A stretch of DNA of 61,265 bases from Clostridium sp. (lineage in GTDB: Bacteria > Bacillota > Clostridia > Clostridiales > Clostridiaceae). Shown one piece after another: positions 3,084 to 19,836 of the stretch. The notes below the pieces were generated by a model. That model was given only the letters and a program-made list of their open reading frames with translations, had not been told where the DNA came from and searched no databases. The first letter of the stretch is position 1. Every line of letters begins with the position of its first letter. The translations under genes were made by a program, and so were the position numbers. The DNA is taken from NCBI GenBank assembly GCA_031292145.1, contig JARLHR010000055.1, forward strand, positions 1 through 61,265. The letters are read 5' to 3'.

Positions 3084-3114
3084 TTGACCTTGAGTTAAGT
3101 TAAGGGTTTATGGT
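3084..3114 (+). promoter_or_regulatory. MerR-type promoter of the DXS-like gene (19-bp spacer)
   Basis: TTGACC (3084-3089), 19 bp containing the dyad CCTTGAGTT/AAGTTAAGG, then TATGGT (3109-3114). A 19-bp spacer with a central dyad is diagnostic of MerR-family activated promoters. The leader also holds a GGCGTT/AACGCC hairpin at 3145-3161. Confidence 0.75.
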
Positions 3115-3194
3115 AGAAGAGAAGTCATAAACTCAAGGGGTTGTGGCGTTAGTCAAACGCCTACCCAAATTAAATGATAAGGAGAAAATAAAAT

Positions 3195-4952
3195 ATGTTT
3201 TTAGAAAAAATAAACTCACCTGTGGATATTAAGAAGTTAAAAATTGAAGAATTAAAAGTGTTAGCAGATGAAACGAGAGCAGCATTAATTAATAAAATTA
3301 GTAATGCAGGAGGTCACAGTGGACCAAACCTTGGAATGGTGGAAATGAGCGTTGCCATGCACTATGTTTTTGATTCGCCAAAGGATAAGTTTGTATTTGA
3401 TGTATCTCATCAGTGTTATCCGCACAAGATTCTTACAGGAAGAAAGGAAGCTTTTACAGATGCAGCACATTTTGCTGACGTAACAGGTTATACTAATCCG
3501 TTAGAAAGTGAGCATGATTTCTTTACAGTAGGACATACTTCAACATCTGTTTCCTTAGCATTAGGTCTGGCAAAAGGGAGAGATCTGAAAAAAGAAGAAG
3601 AAAATATAATTGCAATCATTGGAGACGGTTCACTTTCAGGAGGCGAAGCTTTAGAAGCTCTCGATTATGCAGGAGAATATAATAATAATCTTATAATTAT
3701 TGTAAATGATAATGACCAGAGTATCGCTGAAAATCATGGTGGTATATATAAGACATTACGAAAATTAAGAGAAACAAATGGATCAAGTTCTCAAAACATG
3801 TTTACTGCATTTGGTCTAGATTACAAGTATTTGGAAGATGGCCATGACATTGCAAAGTTAGTAGAATTTTTTGAAAGCGTAAAAGGAATAGATCATCCGA
3901 TTGTCTTACATATTCATACCCTAAAAGGAAAAGGACTTCCATATGCAGAAGCGAACCGTGAAGCATGGCATGCGGGAGGCCCATTTAATGTAGAAGATGG
4001 ATCACCTAAATCTGGTGGTTGGTTAAGCGACAGTACTGTATTTGAAAGTTTAAAGGAGCTTTTAGACAATAATGATAAAGCGGTTGTATTAAATGCTGGA
4101 ACACCAATGGGTCTTGGATTTGTTCAGGGAGTTCGTGAAGAGTATGTTGAAAGAGGACAATTCATCGATGTAGGAATCGCGGAAGAAAACGCAGTTGCAA
4201 TGAGTAGTGGTATTGCAAAAAATGGTGGAACACCGGTATTTGGAACATTTGCTCCATTTTTCCAAAGAACTTATGATCAGATGTCTCATGATTTGTGCCT
4301 AAATAATAATCCAGCAACATTACTTGTACTTATGCCGGGAGTATACGGTATGAATACCAATACTCATATTGCTTTATGTGATATCCAGATGTTTGCGCAT
4401 ATTCCAAATCTGATATATCTGGCACCGACAAGTAAAGAAGAGTACCAACAAATGTTTAAATTTGCAACAACTCAAAAAGAACACCCAGTTGGAATCAGAG
4501 TACCAGGGGCACTTCCTGCAACTGGGGTGGCTGATACAACAGATTATTCTGATTATAATAAAAATAAGGTGGAAATACACGGATCAAAAGTAGCAATTAT
4601 TGCAGTTGGACCAATGTTACAGATGGCTATTGATACTGAAAAGAAACTGAAAGAAAAGACTGGTATTGAGATTACAGTAATTAACCCTAGATTCTTAACA
4701 GGATTAGATGAAGAATTATTAAACTCTTTGAAAACAGATCATCAATTAGTAATTACTCTAGAAGATGGTGAACTTATAGGTGGATATGGTCAGAATGTTG
4801 CCTCTTTCTATGGGGACAGTACAATGAAAGTGAAAAACTTTGGTATTTCTAAAGAATTTCATACAGATTTTAATCCTGTAGAATTATTGGCTGAAAATGG
4901 AATGTCGGTGGAAAAGCTTACAGCTTATATCAAAGAAAATGTGAATGAATAA
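3195..4952 (+). CDS. DXS-like thiamine-diphosphate enzyme with altered substrate site
   Basis: At 585 residues it aligns over its length with 1-deoxy-D-xylulose-5-phosphate synthase (usually about 620). It has the N-terminal DVSHQCYPHKILTGR block, a ThDP-binding GDG (143) to NDN (173) motif, and the catalytic Glu of DVGIAEENAV (E330). Two hallmark segments differ. The DRAGxxGxDGxTH block reads LMPGVYGMNTNTH (about 379-391), without the Asp-Arg pair. The RYPRG segment reads IRVPGA (434-439). In DXS these arginines contact the phosphate of glyceraldehyde 3-phosphate. It may therefore carboligate a different, perhaps unphosphorylated, aldehyde. It sits behind a MerR-type promoter and before an aldo/keto reductase. 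A plain second DXS is the alternative. Confidence 0.75.
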   Translation: MFLEKINSPVDIKKLKIEELKVLADETRAALINKISNAGGHSGPNLGMVEMSVAMHYVFDSPKDKFVFDVSHQCYPHKILTGRKEAFTDAAHFADVTGYTNPLESEHDFFTVGHTSTSVSLALGLAKGRDLKKEEENIIAIIGDGSLSGGEALEALDYAGEYNNNLIIIVNDNDQSIAENHGGIYKTLRKLRETNGSSSQNMFTAFGLDYKYLEDGHDIAKLVEFFESVKGIDHPIVLHIHTLKGKGLPYAEANREAWHAGGPFNVEDGSPKSGGWLSDSTVFESLKELLDNNDKAVVLNAGTPMGLGFVQGVREEYVERGQFIDVGIAEENAVAMSSGIAKNGGTPVFGTFAPFFQRTYDQMSHDLCLNNNPATLLVLMPGVYGMNTNTHIALCDIQMFAHIPNLIYLAPTSKEEYQQMFKFATTQKEHPVGIRVPGALPATGVADTTDYSDYNKNKVEIHGSKVAIIAVGPMLQMAIDTEKKLKEKTGIEITVINPRFLTGLDEELLNSLKTDHQLVITLEDGELIGGYGQNVASFYGDSTMKVKNFGISKEFHTDFNPVELLAENGMSVEKLTAYIKENVNE

Positions 4953-5179
4953 AAGTGCAAGGCATGGAGGTATTCATACTCATTTGTGATTGAAAGAGTG
5001 ATCTACGCATATAAAAATGTGGTTACTCTAATAGAAGTAGACAACTCGCCTTCACGTGATTTGATGTTAACTGTTATTTATACAAAATAAATAATACAAA
5101 ATAATTCGCTTAAGGCTAAGAAACGATAATATTTCATTGGGTTTTGTGCCTTGAGCGAGCGAAAGGAATGGTTATAAAA

Positions 5180-6133
5180 ATGAAAAACGAGAATAAAATG
5201 CCACAAATTGCATTAGGAACATGGTCATGGGGTGTAGGTTTTGCAGGAGGGGATCAGGTTTTTGGTAACAAATTAGGAAAAGAAGATTTAAAACCTGTTT
5301 TTGATATTGCCATGAAAAATGGTCTCAATCTTTGGGATTCAGCAGTTGCTTATGGTATGGGAGATTCAGAAAAGATTCTTGGTTCATTTGCAAAAACATA
5401 CCAACGAGAAAGTCTATTTTTATCAACTAAATTCACACCACAAATTGCTGGAAACTCATCTGATCCAGTTGCTGAAATGTGTGATGCCAGTTTGGAGCGT
5501 TTAGGTACAGATTATATTGATATTTATTGGATTCACAATCCAATGGATGTTGATAGATGGACAAAATATCTGATTCCACTTGTAAAAAGTGGAAAGGTGA
5601 AAAGAGTCGGTGTATCAAATCATAATTTAGAAGAAATCAAACGCGCAGAGAGCATACTTGCGAAAGAGGATGTTCATATTTCAGCAATTCAAAATCATTA
5701 CAGTCTTTTATATCGTTCTTCTGAAGAAGGTGGTATCTTGGATTATTGTAAGGAAAATAACATTACATTTTTTGCATATATGGTATTAGAACAAGGAGCG
5801 CTTAGCGGAAAATATAATACGAAAAATCCGCTTCCTGAAGGTAGTCAACGTGGAATGACTTATAATCCAATACTTGCACAGATTGAAGTACTTACGAATG
5901 AAATGCAAAAGATTGCTGAAAAATATGATGCCAGTGTTTCACAAATTGCTATTGCGTGGGCAATTGCGAAAGGAACAACACCAATAATTGGTGTAACAAA
6001 GCCAGCACAGGTTGAAGATGCGGCAAAAGCAGTTAAAATCAACCTATCAGTGAATGAAATTGAAAACTTAGAAAAAATTGCATCTGAAGCAGGCGTTGAT
6101 ACCAAAGGAGCATGGGAAAATCCAATGGTATAA
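5180..6133 (+). CDS. Aldo/keto reductase (paralogue of 11104-12063)
   Basis: The start is placed at 5180, because GAAAGGA abuts an earlier ATG too closely and fits the third one; this gives 317 residues. It is a cytoplasmic NAD(P)H-dependent carbonyl reductase with a (beta/alpha)8 barrel. The AKR catalytic tetrad is visible: D53 and Y58 (WDSAVAYG), K84 (STKFTP) and H119 (YWIHNP). The VGVSNH motif and a C-terminal IIGVTKPAQ cofactor segment are intact. It follows the DXS-like gene by 227 bp and probably shares its MerR-type promoter. It is closely similar to the AKR at 11104, so the cluster has amplified this enzyme. The natural aldehyde or ketone is unknown. Confidence 0.9.
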   Translation: MKNENKMPQIALGTWSWGVGFAGGDQVFGNKLGKEDLKPVFDIAMKNGLNLWDSAVAYGMGDSEKILGSFAKTYQRESLFLSTKFTPQIAGNSSDPVAEMCDASLERLGTDYIDIYWIHNPMDVDRWTKYLIPLVKSGKVKRVGVSNHNLEEIKRAESILAKEDVHISAIQNHYSLLYRSSEEGGILDYCKENNITFFAYMVLEQGALSGKYNTKNPLPEGSQRGMTYNPILAQIEVLTNEMQKIAEKYDASVSQIAIAWAIAKGTTPIIGVTKPAQVEDAAKAVKINLSVNEIENLEKIASEAGVDTKGAWENPMV

Positions 6134-6170
6134 TGTGCAGATAAATCATCTGTTTCTTTATCAGATGTTT

Positions 6171-6207
6171 TGTCCCAGTAAAGATAATTACTTTACTGGG
6201 ACATTTT
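6171..6207 (+). terminator. Strong intrinsic terminator after the AKR gene
   Basis: TGTCCCAGTAAAG (6171-6183) pairs perfectly with 6191-6203 around a 7-nt loop and is followed by TTTT. It separates the AKR gene from the convergent MerR gene. Confidence 0.85.
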
Positions 6208-6248
6208 AATACATATGGAAACTTAAAAAGGAGCCAAAACTTTGATGT

Positions 6249-6668
6249 TTACTCATGATTTAAGAATTTCATAGCCAGTTCTTCTCTTAGTCCAGGAAGA
6301 TTTGTTGTGCCATTTTCTTTTGAAATTTTATAAAATTCGCATTTATAATTAATTCTTTTTAAAGCATTTTGTAAGAGTAATATTTGCTTTTCAGTCTCTT
6401 CTTTTTGATGTATGAATAATTCATATCGCTTATCAATAGTAGAATCCCCTTCTTCACACCATTCAAAAAATCGTTTGATATCCTTAAGTGGCATTCCTGT
6501 ATTTTTTAGACATTCTATCATTTTCAGACATTCAACATCAGTATCATCAAATACTCGAATATTACCAGAACTTCTATTAACGAGAGGAAGAAGACCACTT
6601 TTATCATAGTAACGCAGTGTTGATATAGATATATTTAACATTTTTGAAATATCGCCAATTGAATACAT
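6249..6668 (-). CDS. MerR-family transcriptional regulator
   Basis: The 139-residue protein opens with the MerR winged-helix motif (SIGDISKMLNISISTLRYYD) and the LLPLVNRSSGNIRVF wing, followed by a long coiled-coil helix (about 85-118). There is no obvious metal-binding Cys cluster, as in the AdhR/NmlR-like aldehyde-responsive group. It is divergent from the cupin operon, whose promoter has the 19-bp spacer expected for MerR activation. It is the only intact MerR gene in the window, while six matching promoters lie between 3 and 19 kb, so it is the best candidate regulator of all six. A decayed second copy remains at 18953-19041. Confidence 0.9.
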   Translation of the reverse strand: MYSIGDISKMLNISISTLRYYDKSGLLPLVNRSSGNIRVFDDTDVECLKMIECLKNTGMPLKDIKRFFEWCEEGDSTIDKRYELFIHQKEETEKQILLLQNALKRINYKCEFYKISKENGTTNLPGLREELAMKFLNHE

Positions 6669-6698
6669 AAATTACCTCCAAAAAATTTTAGTTTAGTA

Positions 6699-6729
6699 TT
6701 GACCTCGAGTTAGGTTTAGGTATTACAAT
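6699..6729 (+). promoter_or_regulatory. MerR-type promoter of the cupin-CMD operon
   Basis: TTGACC (6699-6704), 19-bp spacer with the imperfect dyad, and TACAAT (6724-6729). It lies in the divergent region between the MerR gene and the cupin gene, the usual place for a MerR autoregulatory operator. Confidence 0.8.
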
Positions 6730-6876
6730 ATATTTATCATAAGCGATTAAAGAAACTTATGCAAGATAAATGTGTCCCATAAAAGGAAGTCTATGGAGTT
6801 TGATTTTTATGTGTTACATATCAATACTCACATAAGGGTTTTAGAAAAATAATAAATATGAAATGGAGAAATAAAA

Positions 6877-7287
6877 ATGGCGAGAAAAGAATTAGAAAAG
6901 GTATCCGACTTTTTACTTGGTGAAGAAAATATTATTTATGCACCTTATTTTACTGGGAAAAGCTATTTAGGTGTACTAAATACTAAGGAAGCGTTTATTG
7001 CTAATGTCACATTTGAACCAGGATGTCGTAATAACTGGCATATTCACCATGGTAGTGGACAAATATTAATTTGTGTAGGTGGCCACGGCTGGTACCAAGA
7101 ACTTGGTAAAGAAGCACAATTTTTGAAGAGTGGGGACGTAGTGTATATTGCACCTGAAATTAAACACTGGCATGGTGCTGCACACGATGAAGCTTTTGCA
7201 CACTTAGCATTATCGATTCCTGTAGAAGGTGCTTCAAATGAATGGTGTGAACCAGTAGCAGATGAAGAATATATGAAATTAAAATAA
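6877..7287 (+). CDS. Cupin-domain protein
   Basis: This 136-residue single-domain cupin has the metal-binding motif in NNWHIHHGSGQILICVGGHGWYQ (quoted only in part: WHIHHGSGQ) and a second His in IKHWHGA. The predicted role is a small cytoplasmic metal-dependent enzyme or binding protein. It is followed after 59 bp by a carboxymuconolactone-decarboxylase-like gene, a pairing often seen in bacteria. A near-identical copy at 19246 is fused to the same CMD-like domain. Its promoter has the MerR signature, so it is likely induced with the reductases. The substrate is unknown. Confidence 0.88.
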   Translation: MARKELEKVSDFLLGEENIIYAPYFTGKSYLGVLNTKEAFIANVTFEPGCRNNWHIHHGSGQILICVGGHGWYQELGKEAQFLKSGDVVYIAPEIKHWHGAAHDEAFAHLALSIPVEGASNEWCEPVADEEYMKLK

Positions 7288-7346
7288 GATTTTGAAGTCT
7301 TACAAAATGGAAATTTTATTTATTATTGAAAGGAATGGTTATAATT

Positions 7347-7679
7347 ATGAAAAAACAAACAGCAGGAAGAGATTCACTTGGTGTATTTGCACCTAAATTT
7401 GCAGAATTAAATGATGATGTTTTATTTGGTGAAGTTTGGGCTCGTGAGGATAAATTATCACTTAGGGATCGTAGTGTAATTACAGTAACAGCTTTAATGA
7501 CAAAAGGAATTTTTGATAACTCTCTAAAATACCATTTGACAAATGCAAAAAATAATGGAGTTACTGCAGAAGAAATTGCTGAGATTATAACGCATCTAGC
7601 ATTTTATATTGGATGGCCAAATGCGTGGGCTACATTTAACTTAGCAAAGGAAGTATGGGGGTGGACTAGATATTACTGA
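7347..7679 (+). CDS. Carboxymuconolactone decarboxylase (CMD)-family protein
   Basis: The start at 7347 is chosen because AAAGGA lies 12 nt upstream, whereas an earlier in-frame ATG directly abuts it; the protein is then 110 residues. It has the CMD/AhpD-like helical fold signature (RDRSVITVTALM and AEIITHLAFYIGWPNA) but lacks the CxxC redox pair of AhpD, so peroxidase activity is unlikely. It is the second gene of the cupin operon. The partial copy inside the fusion at 19246-19836 lacks the first 38 residues. Precise function is unknown; involvement in carbonyl or aromatic metabolism is inferred from neighbours. Confidence 0.85.
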   Translation: MKKQTAGRDSLGVFAPKFAELNDDVLFGEVWAREDKLSLRDRSVITVTALMTKGIFDNSLKYHLTNAKNNGVTAEEIAEIITHLAFYIGWPNAWATFNLAKEVWGWTRYY

Positions 7680-7784
7680 AAAAAGTATATAAAAAGAAAA
7701 GTAAGAAAGAAAATCATAGAGAAATAAAGGGTCACTATGGTTTTCTATTTTTATTGTACAGACTAGTTATACAAAAAAAATTAA

Positions 7785-7916
7785 AATTTCAGAAACCTGA
7801 AAGATTTATTAAATCTCGGATTATTAAAGAAGAATGATGAACGACAATATTTGATTATTATATATTCTATTATATTTGCTACATTAAGCGGTATTATTAT
7901 TAATTGCATTTACTAA
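7785..7916 (+). pseudogene. Possible 3' fragment of a small membrane-protein gene
   Basis: An open frame without a start codon encodes about 43 residues, including KKNDERQYL followed by a hydrophobic helix (IIIYSIIFATLSGIIIN) and a stop. The NDERQ-plus-helix pattern resembles the ends of small clostridial membrane proteins. It may be only chance coding potential. Confidence 0.3.
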
Positions 7917-7952
7917 AAACTTTTATATATTAAAGATGTAGGAGAGAGACGT

Positions 7953-8522
7953 ATGAAAAAGATATTATATTTAATGAGACATGGACAAACAATGTTTAAC
8001 CTTAGAAGAAAGGTTCAAGGCTTCTGTGATTCACCACTTACTGAATTAGGAATTAAACAAGCAAAAGTTGCAGCAAAGTATTTTGAAGATAACAATATTA
8101 CATTTGATCACGCCTATAGCTCAACTTCTGAAAGAGCATGTGATACTTTAGAAATAGTTACTTATATGCCTTATAAAAGATTAAAAGGATTAAAAGAGTG
8201 GGATTTTGGAGTCTTTGAAGGAGAAAGTGAAGATTTAAACCCACCGCTTCCTTATGGTGACTTCTTCGCTAAGTATGGTGGAGAAGAAGAAAAAGAATTT
8301 CAAAAGAGAATTGCTGATACCTGCAAAAAAATAATGGAAGAAGATAATGAAATAGTTTTGGCAGTTTCCCATGGAGCAGCTTGTAGGAATTTCATGAGAT
8401 ATTGGGCTCATACAAGTTCTGTTAATCAGAAAGAAAGGATTGGGAACTGTTGTATATTGAAATTTGAATATGAAAATCAGGAATTTAAATTAATTGAAAT
8501 TATAAATCATAATTTTAATTAA
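7953..8522 (+). CDS. Histidine phosphatase (phosphoglycerate mutase-like) family protein
   Basis: The 189-residue protein has the branch-1 histidine phosphatase signature LMRHGQTMFN (catalytic His near residue 9), a conserved EWDFGVFEGE block, and the second catalytic His in VSHGAACRNF (about 147). It is likely a cytoplasmic phosphatase acting on a small phosphorylated metabolite. AGGAGAGAG precedes the ATG. It has no MerR-type promoter directly upstream and is separated from the CMD gene by 273 bp, so it may be a separate unit. The cofactor-dependent mutase activity of glycolysis is less likely given its length and motifs. Confidence 0.85.
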   Translation: MKKILYLMRHGQTMFNLRRKVQGFCDSPLTELGIKQAKVAAKYFEDNNITFDHAYSSTSERACDTLEIVTYMPYKRLKGLKEWDFGVFEGESEDLNPPLPYGDFFAKYGGEEEKEFQKRIADTCKKIMEEDNEIVLAVSHGAACRNFMRYWAHTSSVNQKERIGNCCILKFEYENQEFKLIEIINHNFN

Positions 8523-8616
8523 AATAATAAACATTATAAATAAACTCCTTAATTACTTGAATTGTGTATTAAGGGTAAAAATAGGCACACTTTAATAAGC
8601 TTTTTTAAAAAATATA

Positions 8617-8647
8617 TTGACATTAAGTTGAGTTAAGGGGCTATTCT
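8617..8647 (+). promoter_or_regulatory. MerR-type promoter of the flavodoxin gene
   Basis: TTGACA (8617-8622), 19-bp spacer containing TTAAGTTGAGTTAAGG, and TATTCT (8642-8647). It is the third member of the shared promoter family. Confidence 0.75.
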
Positions 8648-8696
8648 AAGAGCGTAAGGATTATTTATGTATAAATAAAAATAAGGAGATGAAATT

Positions 8697-9179
8697 ATGA
8701 GTAAAACATTGGTAGCTTACTTTTCAGTAAGTGGGGTTACAAAAAAAGTTGCTGAAAAAATTTCAATAGCTGCAGGAGCGGATTTATATGAAATAAAGTC
8801 AGAAGATCCATATACAAAGGAAGATTTAAATTGGAATAATAAGAATAGCCGCAGTAGTATAGAAATGAATGATCCTAATTCAAGACCATCCATTGCTGAT
8901 AGGGTGGATAATTTTGAAGAATATGATGTTATATTTGTAGGATTTCCAATTTGGTGGTATATAGCTCCAACAATTATTAACACTTTTATAGAAAGTTACG
9001 ATTTTTTAGGAAAGACAGTAGTTACTTTCTGTACTTCTGGGGGTAGTGGTCTTGGGAATAGTGACAAGATATTAAAGGCATGTTGCGATCCTTCTGTTAA
9101 TTGGGTTTCAGGAAAAAGATTCAGTGCAGGAGCAACAATAGAAAACATTAAAGAATTGTTAACAGGTCTAGAATTATAA
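8697..9179 (+). CDS. Flavodoxin
   Basis: The 160-residue protein has the FMN phosphate-binding loop at its N-terminus (VAYFSVSGVTKKVAEKI) and the VGFPIWWYIAPTII segment typical of the flavodoxin_4 group. It is a cytoplasmic one- or two-electron carrier. It sits behind a MerR-type promoter and 85 bp before an aldo/keto reductase, so the two are probably co-transcribed. A 34-codon remnant of a paralogue is at 19847-19948. It could also act as a small flavin-dependent reductase rather than a classical flavodoxin. Confidence 0.9.
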   Translation: MSKTLVAYFSVSGVTKKVAEKISIAAGADLYEIKSEDPYTKEDLNWNNKNSRSSIEMNDPNSRPSIADRVDNFEEYDVIFVGFPIWWYIAPTIINTFIESYDFLGKTVVTFCTSGGSGLGNSDKILKACCDPSVNWVSGKRFSAGATIENIKELLTGLEL

Positions 9180-9264
9180 GAAAAAGTTTAGAGGAATATT
9201 AAAATAGTAGACTTTAAAATAGTATATCTATATTTGAAGAATTATTAAATTTCAAAGGAGTAAG

Positions 9265-10434
9265 ATGAAAATGAAATATATTAAATTAGGAAACTCAGAT
9301 TTGAATGTATCACGTATTTGTATGGGATGTATGGGATTTGGAGATGCAAACAATGGTCAGCATAGCTGGACAATTGATGAAGAAAATTCTAGAAAAATTA
9401 TCAAAAGAGGTCTTGAGCTTGGAATAAATTTTTTTGATACGGCAATAGGTTATCAAAGTGGTACTAGCGAAAAGTATTTAGGTAAGGCAATTAAAGATTT
9501 TACCAAAAGAGAGGATGTCATAATAGCAACAAAGTTTCTTCCTAGAACTGTTGAAGAAATAGAAAAAGGTATTTCTGGACAACAGCATATTGAAAAAATG
9601 CTAGATAAAAGTCTTGAAAATTTAGGAATGGATTATGTAGATCTTTATATATACCATATGTGGGATTATCAAACACCTATATATGACATATTAGATGGAT
9701 TGAATAACGCAGTGAAATCAGGAAAAGTCCGTAATATTGGAATATCAAATTGTTTTGCGTGGCAATTGGCAAAAGCAAATGCTATTGCAGAAAAAGAAGG
9801 TTTTGCTAAATTCATTTCTATTCAAGGACATTATAACCTTATCTTTAGAGAGGAAGAAAGGGAGATGGCGCAACTTTGCAGAGAAGATAATATAGCTATG
9901 ACGCCTTATAGTGCATTAGCTAGTGGAAGATTAGCAAAGCGTCCAGAGGAGACTTCTAAACGATTGGAACAAGATACATATGCAAAATTTAAATACGATG
10001 AAATGGCTGAATATGATAATGTAATCATTGGTCGTGTATCAGAACTTGCAAAGGAGAAAAATGTTTCAATGACAGAAGTTTCTTTAGCATGGTTACTAAC
10101 AAAGGTTGCATCACCTGTAGTTGGAGCTACTAAGCTTCATCATGTGGAAGGGGCAGTTAATGCTGTAAAATTAAAATTAACTGATGAAGAAATAAAGTAT
10201 CTTGAAGAGCCATATGTACCACATGGATTAGTTGGGGTTATGGCACAGAATACTATTTCTACAAGTACTGAAAAGAAAGTATGGTCTGTAGGTAATCAAA
10301 AAGTTTTATTTTTGTGTAATAAAAATAAAAAAACATTAAAAAAATTTTTTAGAAAGTACTTGACCTTAAGCCGAGTTAAGGGGTTAAGCTTATATCAAGC
10401 AAGAAAGATTTTAAGTTTAATGGTTAATATTTAA
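9265..10434 (+). CDS. Aldo/keto reductase with C-terminal extension over the next promoter
   Basis: A 389-residue AKR of the YdhF/Tas-like group with an intact tetrad: D58, Y63 (FFDTAIGY), K90 (IATKF) and H131 (YHMWD). The conserved body ends near residue 329 (GVMAQN). The closely related fragment at 12184-12615 stops three codons after this point, but here the frame runs on for about 57 more residues. That tail is Lys-rich, does not look conserved, and is the translation of intergenic DNA including the MerR-type promoter at 10360-10390. A lost stop codon or small frameshift is likely. Activity may be unaffected. AAAGGAG precedes the ATG. Confidence 0.85.
   Translation: MKMKYIKLGNSDLNVSRICMGCMGFGDANNGQHSWTIDEENSRKIIKRGLELGINFFDTAIGYQSGTSEKYLGKAIKDFTKREDVIIATKFLPRTVEEIEKGISGQQHIEKMLDKSLENLGMDYVDLYIYHMWDYQTPIYDILDGLNNAVKSGKVRNIGISNCFAWQLAKANAIAEKEGFAKFISIQGHYNLIFREEEREMAQLCREDNIAMTPYSALASGRLAKRPEETSKRLEQDTYAKFKYDEMAEYDNVIIGRVSELAKEKNVSMTEVSLAWLLTKVASPVVGATKLHHVEGAVNAVKLKLTDEEIKYLEEPYVPHGLVGVMAQNTISTSTEKKVWSVGNQKVLFLCNKNKKTLKKFFRKYLTLSRVKGLSLYQARKILSLMVNI
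10360..10390 (+). promoter_or_regulatory. MerR-type promoter inside the 3' end of an AKR gene
   Basis: TTGACC (10360-10365), 19-bp spacer and TAAGCT (10385-10390). It drives the quinone-reductase-like gene at 10456 and is overlapped by the extended AKR reading frame. Confidence 0.75.
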
Positions 10435-10455
10435 ATATCAAAGGAGGGATTTACA

Positions 10456-11037
10456 GTGAAACACTTAGTAGTTTTTGCACATCCTTATTCTAAAAGTTTT
10501 GGAAAAGGAATTGTAGATACAATAGAGAAAGAGGTTCTAAAGAATGGAGCTGAAATAAGAGTTAGGGATTTATATGAAATTGGTTTTAATTCGGCTTTAC
10601 AAGGTTCAGATCTTCTAAATTTGAGAACAGGTGATTATGCAGCAGATATTAAAGAGGAGCAGGAACACATCAAATGGGCAGATATTATAACTTTTGTTTA
10701 TCCAGTGTGGTGGGCTGGATTACCTGTTATGCTGAAAGGATATGTAGACAGAGTTTTTGCAAATGGTTTTGCATTTACTCATGATGAGAATGGTCCAGTA
10801 GGTCTTTTAAAAGGAAAAAAGGCAATCTTATTCTCTACAACAGGATTCCCAAGTGAGCATTATGAGCAAATTGGAATGCATAAATCAATGAAACAGACAT
10901 CGGATGAAGCAATCTTTGAATTCTGTGGAATTGATGTAATCAAGCATGTGTTTTTTGGAGCAGTTCCATCTTCAACAGAAGAGGAGCGCAAAAAATATTT
11001 AAGCGAAGTAGAAGAAGTTATTAAAGCAAATTGTTAA
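10456..11037 (+). CDS. NAD(P)H dehydrogenase (quinone)-like flavoprotein
   Basis: A 193-residue flavodoxin_2-family protein (relatives include KefF, YwrO and DT-diaphorase-like oxidoreductases). It has an N-terminal VVFAHPYSKSFGKG loop for FMN/FAD, a VYPVWWAGLPVMLKGYVDRVF block and an FSTTGFP segment. It likely reduces quinones or other electrophiles in the cytoplasm with NAD(P)H. The start is a GTG at 10456, supported by AGGAGGG ten bases upstream. Its MerR-type promoter fits induction by electrophiles. The aldo/keto reductase at 11104 follows after 66 bp, probably in the same operon. Confidence 0.88.
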   Translation: MKHLVVFAHPYSKSFGKGIVDTIEKEVLKNGAEIRVRDLYEIGFNSALQGSDLLNLRTGDYAADIKEEQEHIKWADIITFVYPVWWAGLPVMLKGYVDRVFANGFAFTHDENGPVGLLKGKKAILFSTTGFPSEHYEQIGMHKSMKQTSDEAIFEFCGIDVIKHVFFGAVPSSTEEERKKYLSEVEEVIKANC

Positions 11038-11103
11038 TAGACAGAAATAAAATTAGTAAAATAATATTTTAATTATATTATATGTAGAAAAGGAGAAATA
11101 AAT

Positions 11104-12063
11104 ATGACAAATGAAAATAAAATGAAATTACCTGTAATTGCGCTTGGTGCTTGGGCATGGGGAAGCGGTATGGCAGGAGGAGATCAAGTATTTGGTAATG
11201 CTTTCACAGAAGAAGATTTGAAACCGGTTTTTGATGCAGCAATAAAAGCAGGACTTAACTTATGGGATACAGCAGCAGTATACGGAATGGGTGCTTCAGA
11301 AGCAATCTTAGGTAAGTTTATTCAATCAGTATCAAGAGAAAATGTTATAATTTCAACTAAATTTACTCCACAGATTTCTAATGGTTCAGAAACTGCAATG
11401 GAAGATATGTTTCAAGAAAGTGCAGAAAGATTAGGAACAGATTTTATTGATATTTACTGGATTCATAATCCAGCAGATGTTGAAAAATGGACAAAAGAAT
11501 TAATTCCTTTAATGAAAGAAGGTAAAATAGGTAAAGTTGGTGTTTCAAATCATAATCTAGATGAAATCAAACTTGCAAACAATATATTACAAAAAGAAGG
11601 ATTAAAGATATCTGCTGTTCAAAATCATTATAGCTTGTTACATCGTTCATCAGAAGATGCAGGTATAATTGATTACTGTAATGAAAATGATATTATATTC
11701 TTTGCTTATATGGTTCTTGAACAAGGAGCTCTTTCAGGAAAGTATGATACAACTAATCCATTCCCAGAAGGCAGCGACAGAGCAAGGGTTTATAATCCTG
11801 TACTTCCTCAAATTGAAACACTAATTGATTCATTAAAAGAAATTGCAGATAAGCATGATGCTACAGTTGCACAAATTGCAATTGCATGGGCTATAGCAAA
11901 ACATACTTTACCAATAATTGGTGTAACTAAAGGAAGACAAGTAGAAGATGCAGTTAAAGCTTCTAAGATTGTTTTATCTCAAGAAGAGATAAATAGAATG
12001 GAAGAATTGGCAAAATATGCTGATATCCAAACAATTAGAGAATGGGAAAAACCAATGAAGTAA
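11104..12063 (+). CDS. Aldo/keto reductase (paralogue of 5180-6133)
   Basis: This 319-residue AKR carries an intact tetrad: D55, Y60, K86 (STKFTP) and H121 (YWIHNP). It matches the AKR at 5180 along its length, including AGGDQVFGN, QNHYSLL and YMVLEQGALSGKY. It is a cytoplasmic NAD(P)H-dependent carbonyl reductase of unknown substrate. AAAGGAG precedes the ATG. It probably belongs to the operon started at the promoter at 10360. A GGCAC/GTGTC stem with TCTTTTTT at about 12133-12160 is a plausible terminator. Confidence 0.9.
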   Translation: MTNENKMKLPVIALGAWAWGSGMAGGDQVFGNAFTEEDLKPVFDAAIKAGLNLWDTAAVYGMGASEAILGKFIQSVSRENVIISTKFTPQISNGSETAMEDMFQESAERLGTDFIDIYWIHNPADVEKWTKELIPLMKEGKIGKVGVSNHNLDEIKLANNILQKEGLKISAVQNHYSLLHRSSEDAGIIDYCNENDIIFFAYMVLEQGALSGKYDTTNPFPEGSDRARVYNPVLPQIETLIDSLKEIADKHDATVAQIAIAWAIAKHTLPIIGVTKGRQVEDAVKASKIVLSQEEINRMEELAKYADIQTIREWEKPMK

Positions 12064-12183
12064 TTTTGGAGTGAAAAACTAGAAAAATGAATTTTTAATA
12101 CAACATTACAATTGATTAAACCCTAATTTTAGGGGCACTTGAAAGGGTGTCTCTTTTTTAACAATAGTAACGATTGCTTTACT

Positions 12184-12615
12184 TATAATCTGTTATTCCG
12201 CGAGGAAGAAAGAGAGATGATTCCGTATTGTAAAGAAGAAAATATCGCAATCACTCCATACAGTCCACTTGCATCAGACAGACTTGTAAAATCTCGCACG
12301 GAGACTTCTAAGAGATTAGAGGAGGATACTTATGCAAGGGGGAAATATGATGCAACTGCTGAGCAAGATGCAATAATTATTAATAGAGTAGCAGAATTGG
12401 CAGAAAAGAAAGGCATCACTAGAATACAAATTGCACTTGGATGGCTGTTTACTAAAGTAACAGCGCTAGTTGTTAGAGCAACTAAACTTTCTCATATTGA
12501 TGATGCTGTGAGTGCATTTTCAGCTAAATTAACAGAAGAAGAAATAGCATATTTGGAAGAAGCATATATACCACATAAGTTAGTAGGTGTAATGGCACAG
12601 AATAATATAAGATAG
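12184..12615 (+). pseudogene. Truncated aldo/keto reductase (C-terminal 40 percent only)
   Basis: From YNLLFREEEREM onward, this frame matches residues about 191-329 of the AKR at 9265 (shared SKRLE, GWLxTKV, ATKLxH and GVMAQN), and ends with GVMAQNNIR. The N-terminal half with D, Y, K and H is missing. The in-frame ATG at 12139 lies in the terminator region of the preceding gene and has no good ribosome-binding site. A nonfunctional duplicate is the best reading. Confidence 0.85.
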
Positions 12616-12855
12616 ATAAAACAGTAAATTATGGATTACAGCTGAAAAATTATAAAAATATTATGCTTATTAAGCATGATTAAAAATAGAATATAGGTAT
12701 TAGACATAGTTTATTATTGATGTTAAATTAAAAATATAAATCTTCTCAGTAATTTTAAATATGATTTAATATATATAACTTTAATAAACATTAATCTGAA
12801 AGCAAATATAAATAGTGATTGAGTTATTTCGAATATAAAAAATATAATATTTTTA
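12616..12855. other. AT-rich intergenic stretch
   Basis: No open frame with a ribosome-binding site and no repeat was found here apart from a short ATGCTTA/AGCAT hairpin near 12662. The promoter of the next gene follows directly. Confidence 0.5.
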
Positions 12856-12886
12856 TTGATATTAAGTTGGATTCAGGGGGTAAGCT
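12856..12886 (+). promoter_or_regulatory. MerR-type promoter of the MBL-fold gene
   Basis: TTGATA (12856-12861), 19-bp spacer ending in GGGGG, and TAAGCT (12881-12886). It is the most diverged member of the six but keeps the exact spacing and the TTAAGTTGGATTCAGG dyad. Confidence 0.65.
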
Positions 12887-12974
12887 ATAAGAAAATGATA
12901 CCCAGTAAAAAATCATTACTGATATATTTAAATGTAGTTAAGAAGTAATAAATAATTATGGGAGGTATATATTA

Positions 12975-13784
12975 ATGGATGGCAAAAAACAAGCATGTGC
13001 ACCTAAAACTCAGAAATTTGCTAAAAAAGCATTTGAAGCAGAGGATAAAACTGTGATTCGATGGCTTGGAAATTCAGGAGCATTGGTTAACAGCAGAGGA
13101 ACAATAGTAATGGTAGATCCATTATTAAAAGGCTTTGATATGCCTCTACTAATTGATATGCCAATTGAAATATCAGAAGTTCCTAAGGTAGATGCAATAC
13201 TGATCACACATTGTGATAATGATCATTTCAGCAGAATTACATGTAAGGAGCTGCAACCTGTATGTAAAAATTTTCATGCACCTCATCATGTAGCATCTCT
13301 TATGGATGAAATTGGAATTCAAGGACAGGGACACAATATTCATGAATCCTTTGAAGTAGGAAATATTAGAGTTACTTTAACACCAGTTGACCATGCATGG
13401 CAGAATGCATATCCTAAATATAAAACAAGAGAGTTTAAAATGGAAGATTATTGCGGTTTTTGGATAGATACTCCAGATGGTAGTATTTGGGCTGTTGGTG
13501 ATTCTCGATTGTTAGAAGAGCAGCTTAAGATGCCTGTTCCAGATGCTATGCTTTTTGATTTTTCAGATAGTTCCTGGCATATTGGTATGGAAGGTGCCAT
13601 AAAAATGGCAAATAGTTATCCGGATACCAAATTAATTCTTTGGCATTGGGGATGTGTAGATGCTCCTAATATGAAGGAATTTAATGGAGATCCAGCAGAA
13701 CTGGCTGAGAAGATTGTAAATCCAGAGCGAATAGTGGTTTTAGCTCCTGGAGAAGAATATGAATTAAGAAAATTACAGAAATAA
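12975..13784 (+). CDS. Metallo-beta-lactamase-fold hydrolase (UlaG-like)
   Basis: A 269-residue MBL-fold protein with the metal-binding motif THCDNDHF (about residues 77-84), a downstream His in PVDHAW, Asp in VGDSR and a late His in LWHWG. The arrangement resembles the UlaG/ascorbate-6-phosphate-lactonase group more than glyoxalase II. Expected role: cytoplasmic metal-dependent hydrolysis of a lactone or ester. GGGAGGT precedes the ATG, and the promoter is MerR-type. Its stop codon abuts a MerR C-terminal fragment, suggesting that a regulator gene once followed it. Confidence 0.88.
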   Translation: MDGKKQACAPKTQKFAKKAFEAEDKTVIRWLGNSGALVNSRGTIVMVDPLLKGFDMPLLIDMPIEISEVPKVDAILITHCDNDHFSRITCKELQPVCKNFHAPHHVASLMDEIGIQGQGHNIHESFEVGNIRVTLTPVDHAWQNAYPKYKTREFKMEDYCGFWIDTPDGSIWAVGDSRLLEEQLKMPVPDAMLFDFSDSSWHIGMEGAIKMANSYPDTKLILWHWGCVDAPNMKEFNGDPAELAEKIVNPERIVVLAPGEEYELRKLQK

Positions 13785-13993
13785 TAATACAGCTTGCCTT
13801 ACAGGGACTCTCAACTAAGGAGGCAAGAAGGGATATACTGCTTGAAACAAAAGCTTGGCTGGAGAAAAAAATGCATGATATAAAGGAAACTATGGAAGTT
13901 ATTAATTACAAAATTTGTATTTATTACCATAAGTGTGAATCTGCTACAAATGAAGTGGTATCTTTGTGGAATGCAAGTAAAAAGAAGAAGTAG
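13784..13993 (+). pseudogene. C-terminal fragment of a second MerR-family regulator
   Basis: The frame ending at TAG 13991-13993 encodes about 69 residues without a start codon. Its LSTKEARRDILLE, EKKMHDIKETMEVINYK and following residues align with the coiled-coil end of the intact MerR protein (DSTIDKRYELF, ILLLQNALKRINYK), with INYK at the same spacing. The DNA-binding half is gone. It lies directly behind the MBL gene. Confidence 0.7.
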
Positions 13994-14039
13994 AAAATGT
14001 TAAATATAAAATAAAAATGTCGTAAAGAAATATATGAAG

Positions 14040-14085
14040 AACCTCTTTTTGCAGTATAGATATGGTGCAAATTAAGAGGTTTTCT
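14040..14085 (+). terminator. Intrinsic terminator
   Basis: AACCTCTT pairs with AAGAGGTT (14074-14081), with an inner TTTGCA/TGCAAA stem, followed by a T-rich run. It closes the MBL/MerR-fragment unit upstream of the RpiR gene. Confidence 0.8.
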
Positions 14086-14140
14086 GTACTGTAGATAAAA
14101 ATCATTTGAATAGTTTTATATTGATTATAGGAGGAACTTT

Positions 14141-15037
14141 ATGTATTTATTTCAGAAAATTGAAGAGATTAAAATGCAGAATAATACAACTAATAAGATT
14201 ATAGGTGAATTTGTATTAAGAGAAAAAAATAAGCTTAATGAGTATTCTATGCAAGAAATTGCGGATCTTACATATACATCAAAGGCAACATTGGTAAGGT
14301 TTGCAAAAGCATTAGGTTTTTCAGGATGGAAAGAATTTATGAAGTCATTTATAGAAGAATCTTTTTATGAAAAAACTCATTATTCCGATATTAGTCCTAA
14401 TTTTCCATTTGACAAAAATGATTCAATGAAAGAGATAATACGAAAGTTGAGTGCTTTACAAGTTGAAAGTATTTTAGATACTGCAGATTTGATGGATATG
14501 AAAATATTGGAAAGTGCAGTAGAAATTTTATTAGCTTCAAATCGTATTGTAGTATTCGGGTATAGTCCGAGTATTTATATTGAAGAATTATTTAAAAGAA
14601 AAATGATGACTATTGGAAGATTAGTAGAGGTTGCCCCAATTGGAGAAGGTGGAATGATGTCTGCAGCCCTTAAAGAAAATGATTGTGCCATAATTATTTC
14701 ATACTCAGGGAATAACAAAGAGCGTCAGCCAGTGAGTTTTATAAAGAATTTAAAAGAAAATAAAGTTTCATTAATTGGAATTACAAGTGGGGGAAATAAC
14801 TATATGCGAGAACAAATTGATTGCATATTAACAATATCTTCTCGTGAACGTTTGTATAGCAAGATTGCCGGTTATACCACAGAAGAATCTATTATGCACA
14901 TCTTAAACATCATATATTCCTGCTATTTTGCAAGAAATTATCAAGAAAATCTTAATTATAAAATAAAGAATTCACGAGAACTAGAACAGGCTAGAATTGC
15001 TTCTCTTAATAATATGAAGGAAAGTACAAATGAATAA
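14141..15037 (+). CDS. RpiR/MurR-family transcriptional regulator (HTH plus SIS)
   Basis: The 298-residue protein has an N-terminal HTH_6 domain (about 1-75; ADLTYTSKATLVRFAKALGF is the recognition region) and a C-terminal SIS sugar-phosphate-binding domain (about 125-260; VFGYSPSIYIEE, IISYSGNNKERQ). RpiR proteins sense phosphosugars. It lies immediately before, and in the same direction as, a beta-glucoside PTS permease and a 6-phospho-beta-glucosidase, so it most likely controls them in response to a phosphorylated beta-glucoside. AGGAGGAAC precedes the ATG. Whether it activates or represses is not visible. Confidence 0.9.
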   Translation: MYLFQKIEEIKMQNNTTNKIIGEFVLREKNKLNEYSMQEIADLTYTSKATLVRFAKALGFSGWKEFMKSFIEESFYEKTHYSDISPNFPFDKNDSMKEIIRKLSALQVESILDTADLMDMKILESAVEILLASNRIVVFGYSPSIYIEELFKRKMMTIGRLVEVAPIGEGGMMSAALKENDCAIIISYSGNNKERQPVSFIKNLKENKVSLIGITSGGNNYMREQIDCILTISSRERLYSKIAGYTTEESIMHILNIIYSCYFARNYQENLNYKIKNSRELEQARIASLNNMKESTNE

Positions 15038-15107
15038 GAGAGAGTGTGTTTATTAAAAATTTAATCAGCAAAAAAACATTAATTTAATATTGAACATTAC
15101 AAAAAGA

Positions 15108-15146
15108 GAAACATAATATATTGAGATTTACAATATATTATGTTTC
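15108..15146. terminator. Perfect 16-bp hairpin after the RpiR gene
   Basis: Positions 15108-15123 and 15131-15146 are perfect reverse complements with a 7-nt loop. It is AT-rich with only a weak T/A run, and probably acts as a terminator between the regulator and the PTS operon. Confidence 0.6.
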
Positions 15147-15215
15147 AAAATATTTCACATATTTATCGTTATATATCTTGAAAATTAAACCTTGTTTCGA
15201 GTTTAGGCATAAGCA

Positions 15216-15243
15216 TTGAATACGTTTTTTTATGTGATAATAT
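15216..15243 (+). promoter_or_regulatory. Promoter of the PTS-bglA operon
   Basis: TTGAAT (15216-15221), 16-bp spacer and TAATAT (15238-15243), about 150 nt upstream of the PTS start codon and followed by the paired operator-like sites. Confidence 0.5.
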
Positions 15244-15256
15244 AAGCTTATCAAGC

Positions 15257-17278
<2,022 letters not shown>

Positions 17279-17290
17279 ATATTTATTTAG

Positions 17291-18730
<1,440 letters not shown>

Positions 18731-18950
18731 TCTCTAAATTGTTATTGCACACTTGTAATGCGTTATTGAATAATTAATTTTTAGAACAATTATTAAAAAT
18801 TTGGGGTTACCCAGTAATATTATATTACTAGTGCTAAAATTGCAAAATAATAATATTTATTAGAATGATTATAAATCTATGTAGGCTTCCTTTTGTAGTA
18901 AAATACTAATTTGGAAATAGTACGTATAAAAATTTTTCTGCTATTTTTTT
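18731..18950. other. AT-rich spacer without recognisable gene
   Basis: Only short AT-rich inverted repeats (for example AGTAATATTATATTACT near 18813) are visible. Together with the MerR remnant and promoter that follow, the gene-free stretch reaches 19245. Confidence 0.5.
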
Positions 18951-18952
18951 AT

Positions 18953-19041
18953 ATCATTATTTAAGAATTTCACGGCCAGTTTCTCTGGTAGTCAAGGAAG
19001 ATTGTTATGCCATTTTCCTTTGATATTCTGTAAAATTTACG
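18953..19041 (-). pseudogene. Remnant of a duplicated MerR gene (3' end)
   Basis: These 89 bases match the 3' end of the MerR gene at 6249. On the minus strand the frame reads KFYRISKENG, matching CEFYKISKENG, then a frameshift. The rest of the gene, including the DNA-binding half, has been deleted up to just before the promoter at 19063. This shows that the whole merR-cupin-CMD block was duplicated. Confidence 0.75.
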
Positions 19042-19062
19042 CCAATAAGTTTAAATTTAATA

Positions 19063-19093
19063 TTGACCTAAAGTTGGGTTAAGGTATTAGAAT
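19063..19093 (+). promoter_or_regulatory. MerR-type promoter of the cupin/CMD fusion
   Basis: TTGACC (19063-19068), 19-bp spacer and TAGAAT (19088-19093). It is a duplicate of the promoter at 6699, still with the exact spacing although its local MerR gene is destroyed. Confidence 0.75.
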
Positions 19094-19245: not shown

Positions 19246-19836
19246 GTGGATAGAAAAGAACTAGAAAAGGTACCTGACTTTTTACTTGGAGAAGAAAATG
19301 TTACTTATGCACCTTATTTTATTGGAAAAAGCTATTTAAGTCTTTTAAATAGTAAGGAAGTGATTATTTGTAATGTTACATTTGAATCAGGATGCCGAAA
19401 TAATTGGCATATTCATCATGGCAGTGGACAGATATTAATCTGTGTAGGTGGCCATGGCTGGTATCAGGAGATTGGCAAAGAACCACAATTTTTAAAGAGT
19501 GGAGATGTAGTATATATTGCTCCAGAAATCAAACATTGGCATGGCGCTGTAGCAGATGAGGCTTTTGCACACTTATCATTATCTGTTCCAGTAGAAGGTG
19601 GTTCAAATGAATGGTGTGAACCAGTAACCATTAGGGATCGTAGTGTAATCACAGTAACAGCCTTAATGACAAAAGGAATTTTTGACAACTCTTTAAAATA
19701 TCATATGGCAAATGCAAAAAATAATGGAGTGACTGCAGAAGAAATTGCTGAAATTATAACACATCTGGCATTTTATGTAGGGTGGCCAAATGCTTGGGCA
19801 GCATTTGCACTAGCAAAGGAAGTATGGGTGGACTAG
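19246..19836 (+). CDS. In-frame cupin-CMD fusion from a decayed duplicate
   Basis: Residues 1-127 match the cupin at 6877 and the rest matches the CMD protein at 7347, joined as EWCEPV-TIRDRSVI. The junction removes the last approximately 9 cupin residues, the intergenic spacer and the first 38 CMD residues, leaving an open 196-residue frame. A 2-nt deletion near the end changes the terminus (VWVD instead of VWGWTRYY). The start is GTG with GAAGGA only a few bases upstream, weaker than in the parent copy. The cupin half keeps all metal-ligand histidines and may be active; the CMD half may not fold. It is either a young gene fusion or a pseudogene. Confidence 0.75.
   Translation: MDRKELEKVPDFLLGEENVTYAPYFIGKSYLSLLNSKEVIICNVTFESGCRNNWHIHHGSGQILICVGGHGWYQEIGKEPQFLKSGDVVYIAPEIKHWHGAVADEAFAHLSLSVPVEGGSNEWCEPVTIRDRSVITVTALMTKGIFDNSLKYHMANAKNNGVTAEEIAEIITHLAFYVGWPNAWAAFALAKEVWVD

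Follow-up and report, generated by a model that had tools for sequence, protein, structure and literature searches.

The promoters at 3084, 6699, 8617, 10360, 12856 and 19063 of the Clostridium sp. contig JARLHR010000055.1 (assembly GCA_031292145.1) are, as far as their sequence can tell, genuine promoters of the MerR type, and they are probably split between two sister MerR regulators that share one gene set for the reduction of electrophiles. The window, by which the whole analysed stretch of 61,265 nucleotides is meant, is an entire contig (C212) of a 6.34-Mb genome in 282 contigs. The first-pass annotation had joined all six promoters in a single regulon under the MerR protein encoded at 6249-6668 (window MerR), and this was left unsupported, since four of the six sites are of the class that follows MerR2 and MerR4, two regulators encoded on another contig, C275, of the same genome. 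Instead of one operator class at all six promoters, a split into class A (6699 and 19063) and class B (3084, 8617, 10360 and, weakly, 12856) was found.

Six promoters with a fixed spacer

Each of the six sites was found where it had been predicted and has TTGA[CT][AC] followed after exactly 19 bp by TANNNT (6/6). All six hold a dyad within the spacer of 19-20 bp that, according to passages of PMC9909328, characterises MerR promoters, which are opened by distortion of the DNA. The dyads described in the first-pass annotation are present, but imperfect, with 3 to 7 of 9 pairs matching. When the -10 element was not required, TANNNT stood at exactly 19 bp in 34/34 distinct dyads (in 1/34 also at 16), 2 of them taken from stretches chosen after a pattern match and 5 from this genome.

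Position weight matrices were built without any site from this genome, matrix A from 16 sites next to genes related to the window MerR or to MerR1, its paralogue on C275, and matrix B from 17 sites adjoining relatives of MerR2 and MerR4, all chosen, once the pattern had been matched, for their position beside regulator genes. In the window, exactly the six predicted sites were listed at 14 bits or more, and no further position reached 14 bits with either matrix. Class B scores were 42.4 for 3084, 38.0 for 10360, 34.8 for 8617 and 20.1 for 12856, the weakest of the six, and class A scores were 40.4 for 6699 and 37.7 for 19063; near copies of tested sites in the training sets raise such scores, the 6699 orthologue in genome G003 being 31/31 identical and a training site in G196 similar to 10360. 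All six scored higher than the best positions in one random 6.34-Mb first-order Markov sequence of window composition (18.6 for A and 14.6 for B).

The six-site pattern is rare in the genome, as had been anticipated, with 14 matches at up to 3 mismatches in 6.34 Mb against 2 for the reversed-pattern control. Six of these are in the window, six on C275, one on C21 and one on C252, which puts 12/14 in two clusters; placement is almost exclusively before reductase, carboxymuconolactone-decarboxylase-like (CMD) and quinone-type genes and MerR genes, again as proposed. With the six defining sites excluded, 6/8 remaining matches fall on the 19.8-kb C275, which makes up 0.3% of the genome (binomial 3e-14). 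The match C21:4954 precedes a DUF362 ferredoxin gene. The match on C252 lies among short open reading frames, the two of which given to Pfam were without a family match, and is probably due to chance. A first ad hoc dyad pattern, in which a wrong right half was assumed, gave 3 matches against 2.3 expected and was dropped, as was a loose 22-mer with 2 mismatches that returned mostly noise (115 matches against 222 for the reversed control).

The DUF362 ferredoxin gene (L049, 5027-6157) has its NmlR-type site about 40 bases upstream. In L061 a class-A site that is divergent from a MerR gene immediately precedes a relative of 76% identity; relatives of 88-90% identity are found near such sites in G145 and G110.

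The promoter dyads are kept in the genomes of relatives (G003, G023 and G093). Between the window and G003 the 18-bp dyad is identical at 18/18 positions in the DXS, cupin and flavodoxin promoters; that of the flavodoxin promoter is 18/18 identical in G023 too, and 15/18 positions of the quinone reductase promoter dyad agree between the window and G093. The upstream DNA is much less alike (54/119 columns for DXS and 26/97 for flavodoxin), and the downstream DNA is well conserved (115/133 and 114/132, respectively), so that only in comparison with the upstream side is the footprint conspicuous. At the cupin promoter the upstream side is the MerR gene itself, which is conserved (84/90). For the metallo-beta-lactamase-fold (MBL) gene no site was found directly before its relatives within the fetched flank at 6/6 other loci, which gives no support for 12856; these relatives adjoin a LysR gene at 5/6 of the loci and, in G121 and G125, also a MerR3-type gene.

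It is highly improbable that the six are ordinary long-spacer promoters that are alike through local duplication and carry no regulatory meaning. The module at 19063 duplicates that at 6699 and the aldo-keto reductase (AKR) genes are paralogues, but the dyads are conserved across species before non-homologous genes, have MerR genes as neighbours and are seldom met in the rest of the genome. An explanation by local duplication alone was rejected, since orthologues in other species also have the dyads conserved in front of them.

Two operator classes and two regulators

Class A has the right half ..GGTTTAGG with half-sites of the CCTAAA- type, and its sites adjoin the window MerR gene and its relatives. 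Class B has the right half ..GTTAAGG with half-sites of the CCTTAA- type and matches sites beside a second MerR clade. With the own genome left out of the own-class matrix, 16/16 A and 17/17 B training sites were correctly assigned. The promoter at 19063 is nearly tied on the 18-bp dyad alone (A 23.6, B 23.0) and belongs to class A over the full matrices (37.7 against 27.9); by its sequence it reads as a hybrid operator, composed of a class-A left half and downstream DNA and a class-B right half. Some class-A score, 20.3, is also retained by 3084. The dyad symmetry of class-A operators is broken at half-site position 7 in 16/16 training sites and at position 8 in 14/16, and as the same positions are asymmetric across these sites, the asymmetry is itself conserved.

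The window MerR has an N-terminal MerR winged helix-turn-helix (PF13411, 4.5e-19; PF00376, 1.6e-12) and is, as annotated, the one intact MerR divergent from 6699, being the only MerR_1 match on the contig. Its closest named relatives are from Clostridium, with 91% identity in C. beijerinckii HUN142, and its four best relatives of solved structure, at 94-96 bits, include HI_0186 (5e01) and 3gpv, which a passage of PMC5045206 calls NmlR of B. thuringiensis. Against NmlR, its best NCBIfam model, it scored 87.6 bits, below the equivalog cut-off of 175, and it is therefore named NmlR/AdhR-like and not NmlR. MerR1 on C275 is a paralogue of 65% identity with the same kind of sites, and MerR2 and MerR4 are 26-30% identical to the window MerR. 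In the tree, A and B rows separate at 100/99 support and the exclusive A fork has 98/96. PMC4776306 describes a cysteine absolutely conserved in the NmlR/AdhR clade, Cys54 in NmlR and Cys52 in AdhR. The equivalent residue in the window MerR, which also has Cys47, Cys71 and Cys110, is Cys53, and it was present in 13/13 class-A rows against 0/12 class-B rows of an alignment that, like the tree, held no named NmlR or AdhR. Of the three nearest-neighbour rows examined outside both groups, L024 and M4like_G018 have it and M4like_G021 is without it, so its loss may be a peculiarity of the B clade.

The distribution of regulators and sites was compared in 225 genomes of the order, which are related to one another and hence not independent. 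In the protein searches across the order no more than 18 candidates were scored per genome, with cut-offs of E<=1e-42 for the window/MerR1 type and E<=1e-35 for the MerR4 type. At these thresholds the window/MerR1 type was found in 15 genomes, the MerR4 type in 11 and both in 4. Sites with TTAAGG occurred in 11/225 genomes, 9 of these with MerR4 (Fisher 9e-13), and sites with [AG][AG][AG]TTTAGG in 21/225, including 15/15 with a window or MerR1-type MerR (Fisher 6e-19), for sets compiled by hand from the site listing; the reversed pattern gave 0 matches in every genome listed.

The most direct alternative is a single regulon, in which the window MerR reads operators of either class and has all six promoters under its control. 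The common architecture, spacing and gene neighbourhood favour it, as do the scores of 19063 and 3084 in both models and the position of 6249-6668 as the sole MerR_1 match on the contig. TTAAGG sites, however, were found in 0/11 genomes with the window/MerR1 type only versus 5/7 genomes with MerR4 only, and class-B sites are kept in G023 and G093, which have MerR4 and no window-type MerR. In G023, where the best match to the window MerR at the thresholds used was 46% identical, the flavodoxin-AKR2 operon keeps the class-B dyad of 8617, and in G093 a class-B site precedes a quinone reductase of 81% identity. One regulator for all six sites is thus unlikely, and was rejected on the grounds of co-occurrence and matrix scores. 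In G196, TTGACCTTAAGTTGAGTTAAGGGGCTAAGCT stands between a MerR4-type gene and a tautomerase-flavin mononucleotide (FMN) reductase pair and is close to 10360 and 8617.

Dual control, in which the same promoters answer to both MerR proteins, either in competition or as heterodimers on hybrid operators such as 19063, is distinctly unlikely. The combination at 19063 of a left half from class A with a right half from class B and the same 19-bp geometry in both clades agree with it, and the exact 18-mer of 19063 precedes a flavodoxin relative of 80% identity in G110, a genome with both regulators. Only two such exact hybrid sites were, however, among the sites listed, and one of them is before a decayed module and may be drifting; furthermore, the regulators are merely 26-30% identical, and literature searched for MerR heterodimers, half-sites and paralogues gave nothing beyond an evolution review.

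Several observations count against a division between two regulators. TTAAGG sites are carried by G088 and G219 without MerR4 above threshold, and the MerR4 genomes G057 and G112 are without an exact TTAAGG site among the sites listed. The Fisher values overstate the independence of related genomes, and the sets overlap crosswise (TTAAGG with the window-type MerR, p 0.003; TTTAGG with MerR4, p 1e-4) because four genomes carry both regulators; in such genomes the window MerR may also use class-B sites. In the window itself, 19063 scores well in both models, 3084 retains part of its class-A score and 12856 is weak. The cupin-CMD genes in G112 adjoin a MerR4-type gene that a stop truncates near residue 114, and the DXS promoter in G023 is of a third, AdhR-like kind; given these exceptions, the tie between gene set and MerR clade is not strict. 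TTTAGG sites without a window-type MerR above threshold were found in G121 and G125.

Genes of the cluster and their recurrence in relatives

The features of the window are given in Table 1. Wreckage of both regulators is kept in the cluster, as a MerR4-type fragment and a class-A MerR fragment, the latter at 18953-19047 beside 19063, which stands before the decayed cupin/CMD fusion.

Table 1. Promoters, genes and gene remnants of the cluster, in positions of the window.
Positions	Strand	Feature	Remarks
3084..3114	+	Class-B promoter, CCTTGAGTTAAGTTAAGG	19-bp spacer; before DXS-like gene and AKR1
3195..4952	+	Short DXS-like enzyme	585 amino acids; thiamine pyrophosphate and catalytic motifs present
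5144..6133	+	Aldo-keto reductase AKR1	
6249..6668	-	Class-A regulator, NmlR/AdhR-like MerR	139 amino acids
6699..6729	+	Class-A promoter	Divergent from MerR gene
6877..7287	+	Cupin, mandelonitrile-lyase-like	116 bits, below NCBIfam cut-off of 140
7326..7679	+	Carboxymuconolactone-decarboxylase-like protein (CMD)	
8617..8647	+	Class-B promoter	Before flavodoxin-AKR2; dyad identical in G003 and G023
8697..9179	+	Flavodoxin	
9265..10434	+	Aldo-keto reductase AKR2	389 amino acids
10360..10390	+	Class-B promoter	Before quinone reductase and AKR3
10456..11037	+	NAD(P)H quinone-reductase-like flavoprotein	Flavodoxin_2; under NCBIfam cut-offs
11104..12063	+	Aldo-keto reductase AKR3	65% identical to AKR1
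12139..12615	+	AKR2-like C-terminal fragment	
12856..12886	+	Weak class-B promoter	Before MBL gene
12975..13784	+	Metallo-beta-lactamase-fold hydrolase (MBL)	
13790..13984	+	C-terminal remnant of class-B (MerR4-type) regulator	72% identical over residues 68-132
18953..19047	-	Class-A MerR remnant	Two short C-terminal pieces, 61-67% identical
19063..19093	+	Hybrid promoter	
19246..19836	+	Cupin/CMD fusion	Decayed duplicate of 6877-7679, without first ~40 CMD residues
19847..19942	+	Flavodoxin-like N-terminal fragment	Ends duplicated module; 47% over 32 residues

The AKR2 reading frame spans the 10360 promoter, and its relatives are shorter (347 amino acids in G023 and 358 in G003), which suggests that the original stop was lost. 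The AKR fragment, MBL gene and MerR4 fragment are consecutive (12139-13984) and look like the remains of a second MerR4-type locus. The sister cluster on C275 (L048, 201-15926) holds four MerR genes, six sites of the same family and a LysR gene, together with one MATE and two MFS transporters and two FMN reductase-tautomerase units, in one of which the FMN reductase is shortened.

Genes in relatives were named by their best BLASTP match to 34 reference proteins of this genome. Blocks corresponding to the C275 and window clusters adjoin in G003 and G023. The cupin-CMD genes stand beside a window-type MerR gene and a class-A site at 8/9 loci with a MerR of 81% identity or more along the full length (L051-L058 and L060, the exception being L058), and in G023 they lie behind the DXS gene without a site of their own. 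The promoter of the DXS gene is of class B in the window and in G003 and of the third, AdhR-like kind in G023 and G219. A relative of AKR1 (82%) in G093 is downstream of MerR4-type and FMN-reductase genes. Across these arrangements the enzymes are common to the loci and the regulator varies.

DXS-like proteins were collected as 30 matches at E<=1e-190 in the 225 genomes, two of them from this genome (loci L255-L284). At 12/30 of these loci the 1.5 kb upstream of the gene hold an NmlR-type 19-bp promoter on its strand, and at 11/30 the fetched flank holds a small MerR gene, in some cases in pieces. Either of the two was present at 19/30 DXS-like loci versus 2/26 quinone-reductase loci, and the background was about 0.0024 such sites per kb in shuffled sequences, which keep single-base composition only; the DXS-like enzyme is therefore a recurrent partner of this regulator class. 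The second DXS-like copy of the genome (C270:5430-7163), 55% identical, also has such a promoter. The two quinone-reductase loci with a promoter or small MerR gene are those of the window and G093, so that the promoter belongs to the cluster and not to the quinone-reductase family. The DXS-like enzyme could be an aldehyde-consuming carboligase.

A two-regulator reading and its relation to known systems

By analogy with other MerR systems, a MerR dimer on the dyad inside the 19-bp spacer would hold each promoter off until an electrophile is sensed, upon which distortion of the spacer would allow RNA polymerase to use it. The window MerR and its paralogue MerR1 would control class A, and MerR2 and MerR4 on C275, of which the window keeps a fragment only, would control class B. 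Class A would sense through the NmlR-type Cys53, and class B would sense by another route, as its clade lacks this cysteine. The reductases induced would be the aldo-keto reductases, the quinone reductase and flavodoxin, and on C275 the FMN reductase, with the tautomerase and transporter; the CMD and cupin proteins and the DXS-like enzyme would be induced as well, in a set that disarms carbonyls and quinones. This chemistry is plausible from the gene content, and both regulators most likely, by the same analogy, switch on the disposal of carbonyls and quinones by reductive and non-reductive routes; we infer binding, inducers, activation and substrates alike.

AdhR and NmlR respond to formaldehyde or methylglyoxal, and AdhR (YraB) of Bacillus subtilis, with its conserved Cys52, controls an alcohol dehydrogenase and the CMD-like yraC, as described in PMC4776306 and PMC11577753. 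The AdhR regulon is resembled here in that a class-A promoter precedes cupin and iron-containing alcohol dehydrogenase genes on C275 and cupin and CMD genes in the window. It differs in that two MerR clades with half-sites of the CCTAAA- and CCTTAA- types here share the gene set, and in that this set extends to DXS-like, flavodoxin, quinone-reductase and AKR genes. The AdhR operator is of the CTTAAAG type. As in NmlR of Haemophilus influenzae and Neisseria, the window MerR has the equivalent of Cys54 and its gene is divergent from its target; unlike there, the neighbours are not adhC-estD, and the protein falls under the NCBIfam NmlR cut-off. NmlR homologues in Clostridium are mentioned in a passage of PMC4776306. 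With CueR, SoxR and BmrR the sites share a dyad in an over-long spacer and a fixed -10 (passages of PMC9909328), and they differ from these in that one cluster holds two operator classes of equal geometry next to each other. Among the papers listed from an open-access collection, in which few subscription journals are covered, none describes this Clostridium operator pair, and for clostridia the operator logic of NmlR/AdhR-like regulators seems to have had little description. As a kind, the system is known; the division of half-sites between two regulators and the DXS partner look new.

A further idea, rather unlikely at present, is that cysteine-bearing and cysteine-less MerR paralogues form a two-channel sensor, with half-sites interchangeable in the 19-bp frame and hybrids that integrate both signals, possibly through heterodimers. 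If true, the exchange of a half-site would put an enzyme operon under the other sensor.

Under the division of the six promoters between two regulators, each regulator clade would have its own readable half-site, by which regulons could be assigned from sequence and their rewiring traced across species. It would predict which promoters answer which stress in clostridia, and that the short DXS-like enzyme serves in carbonyl and quinone defence and not in ordinary isoprenoid supply.

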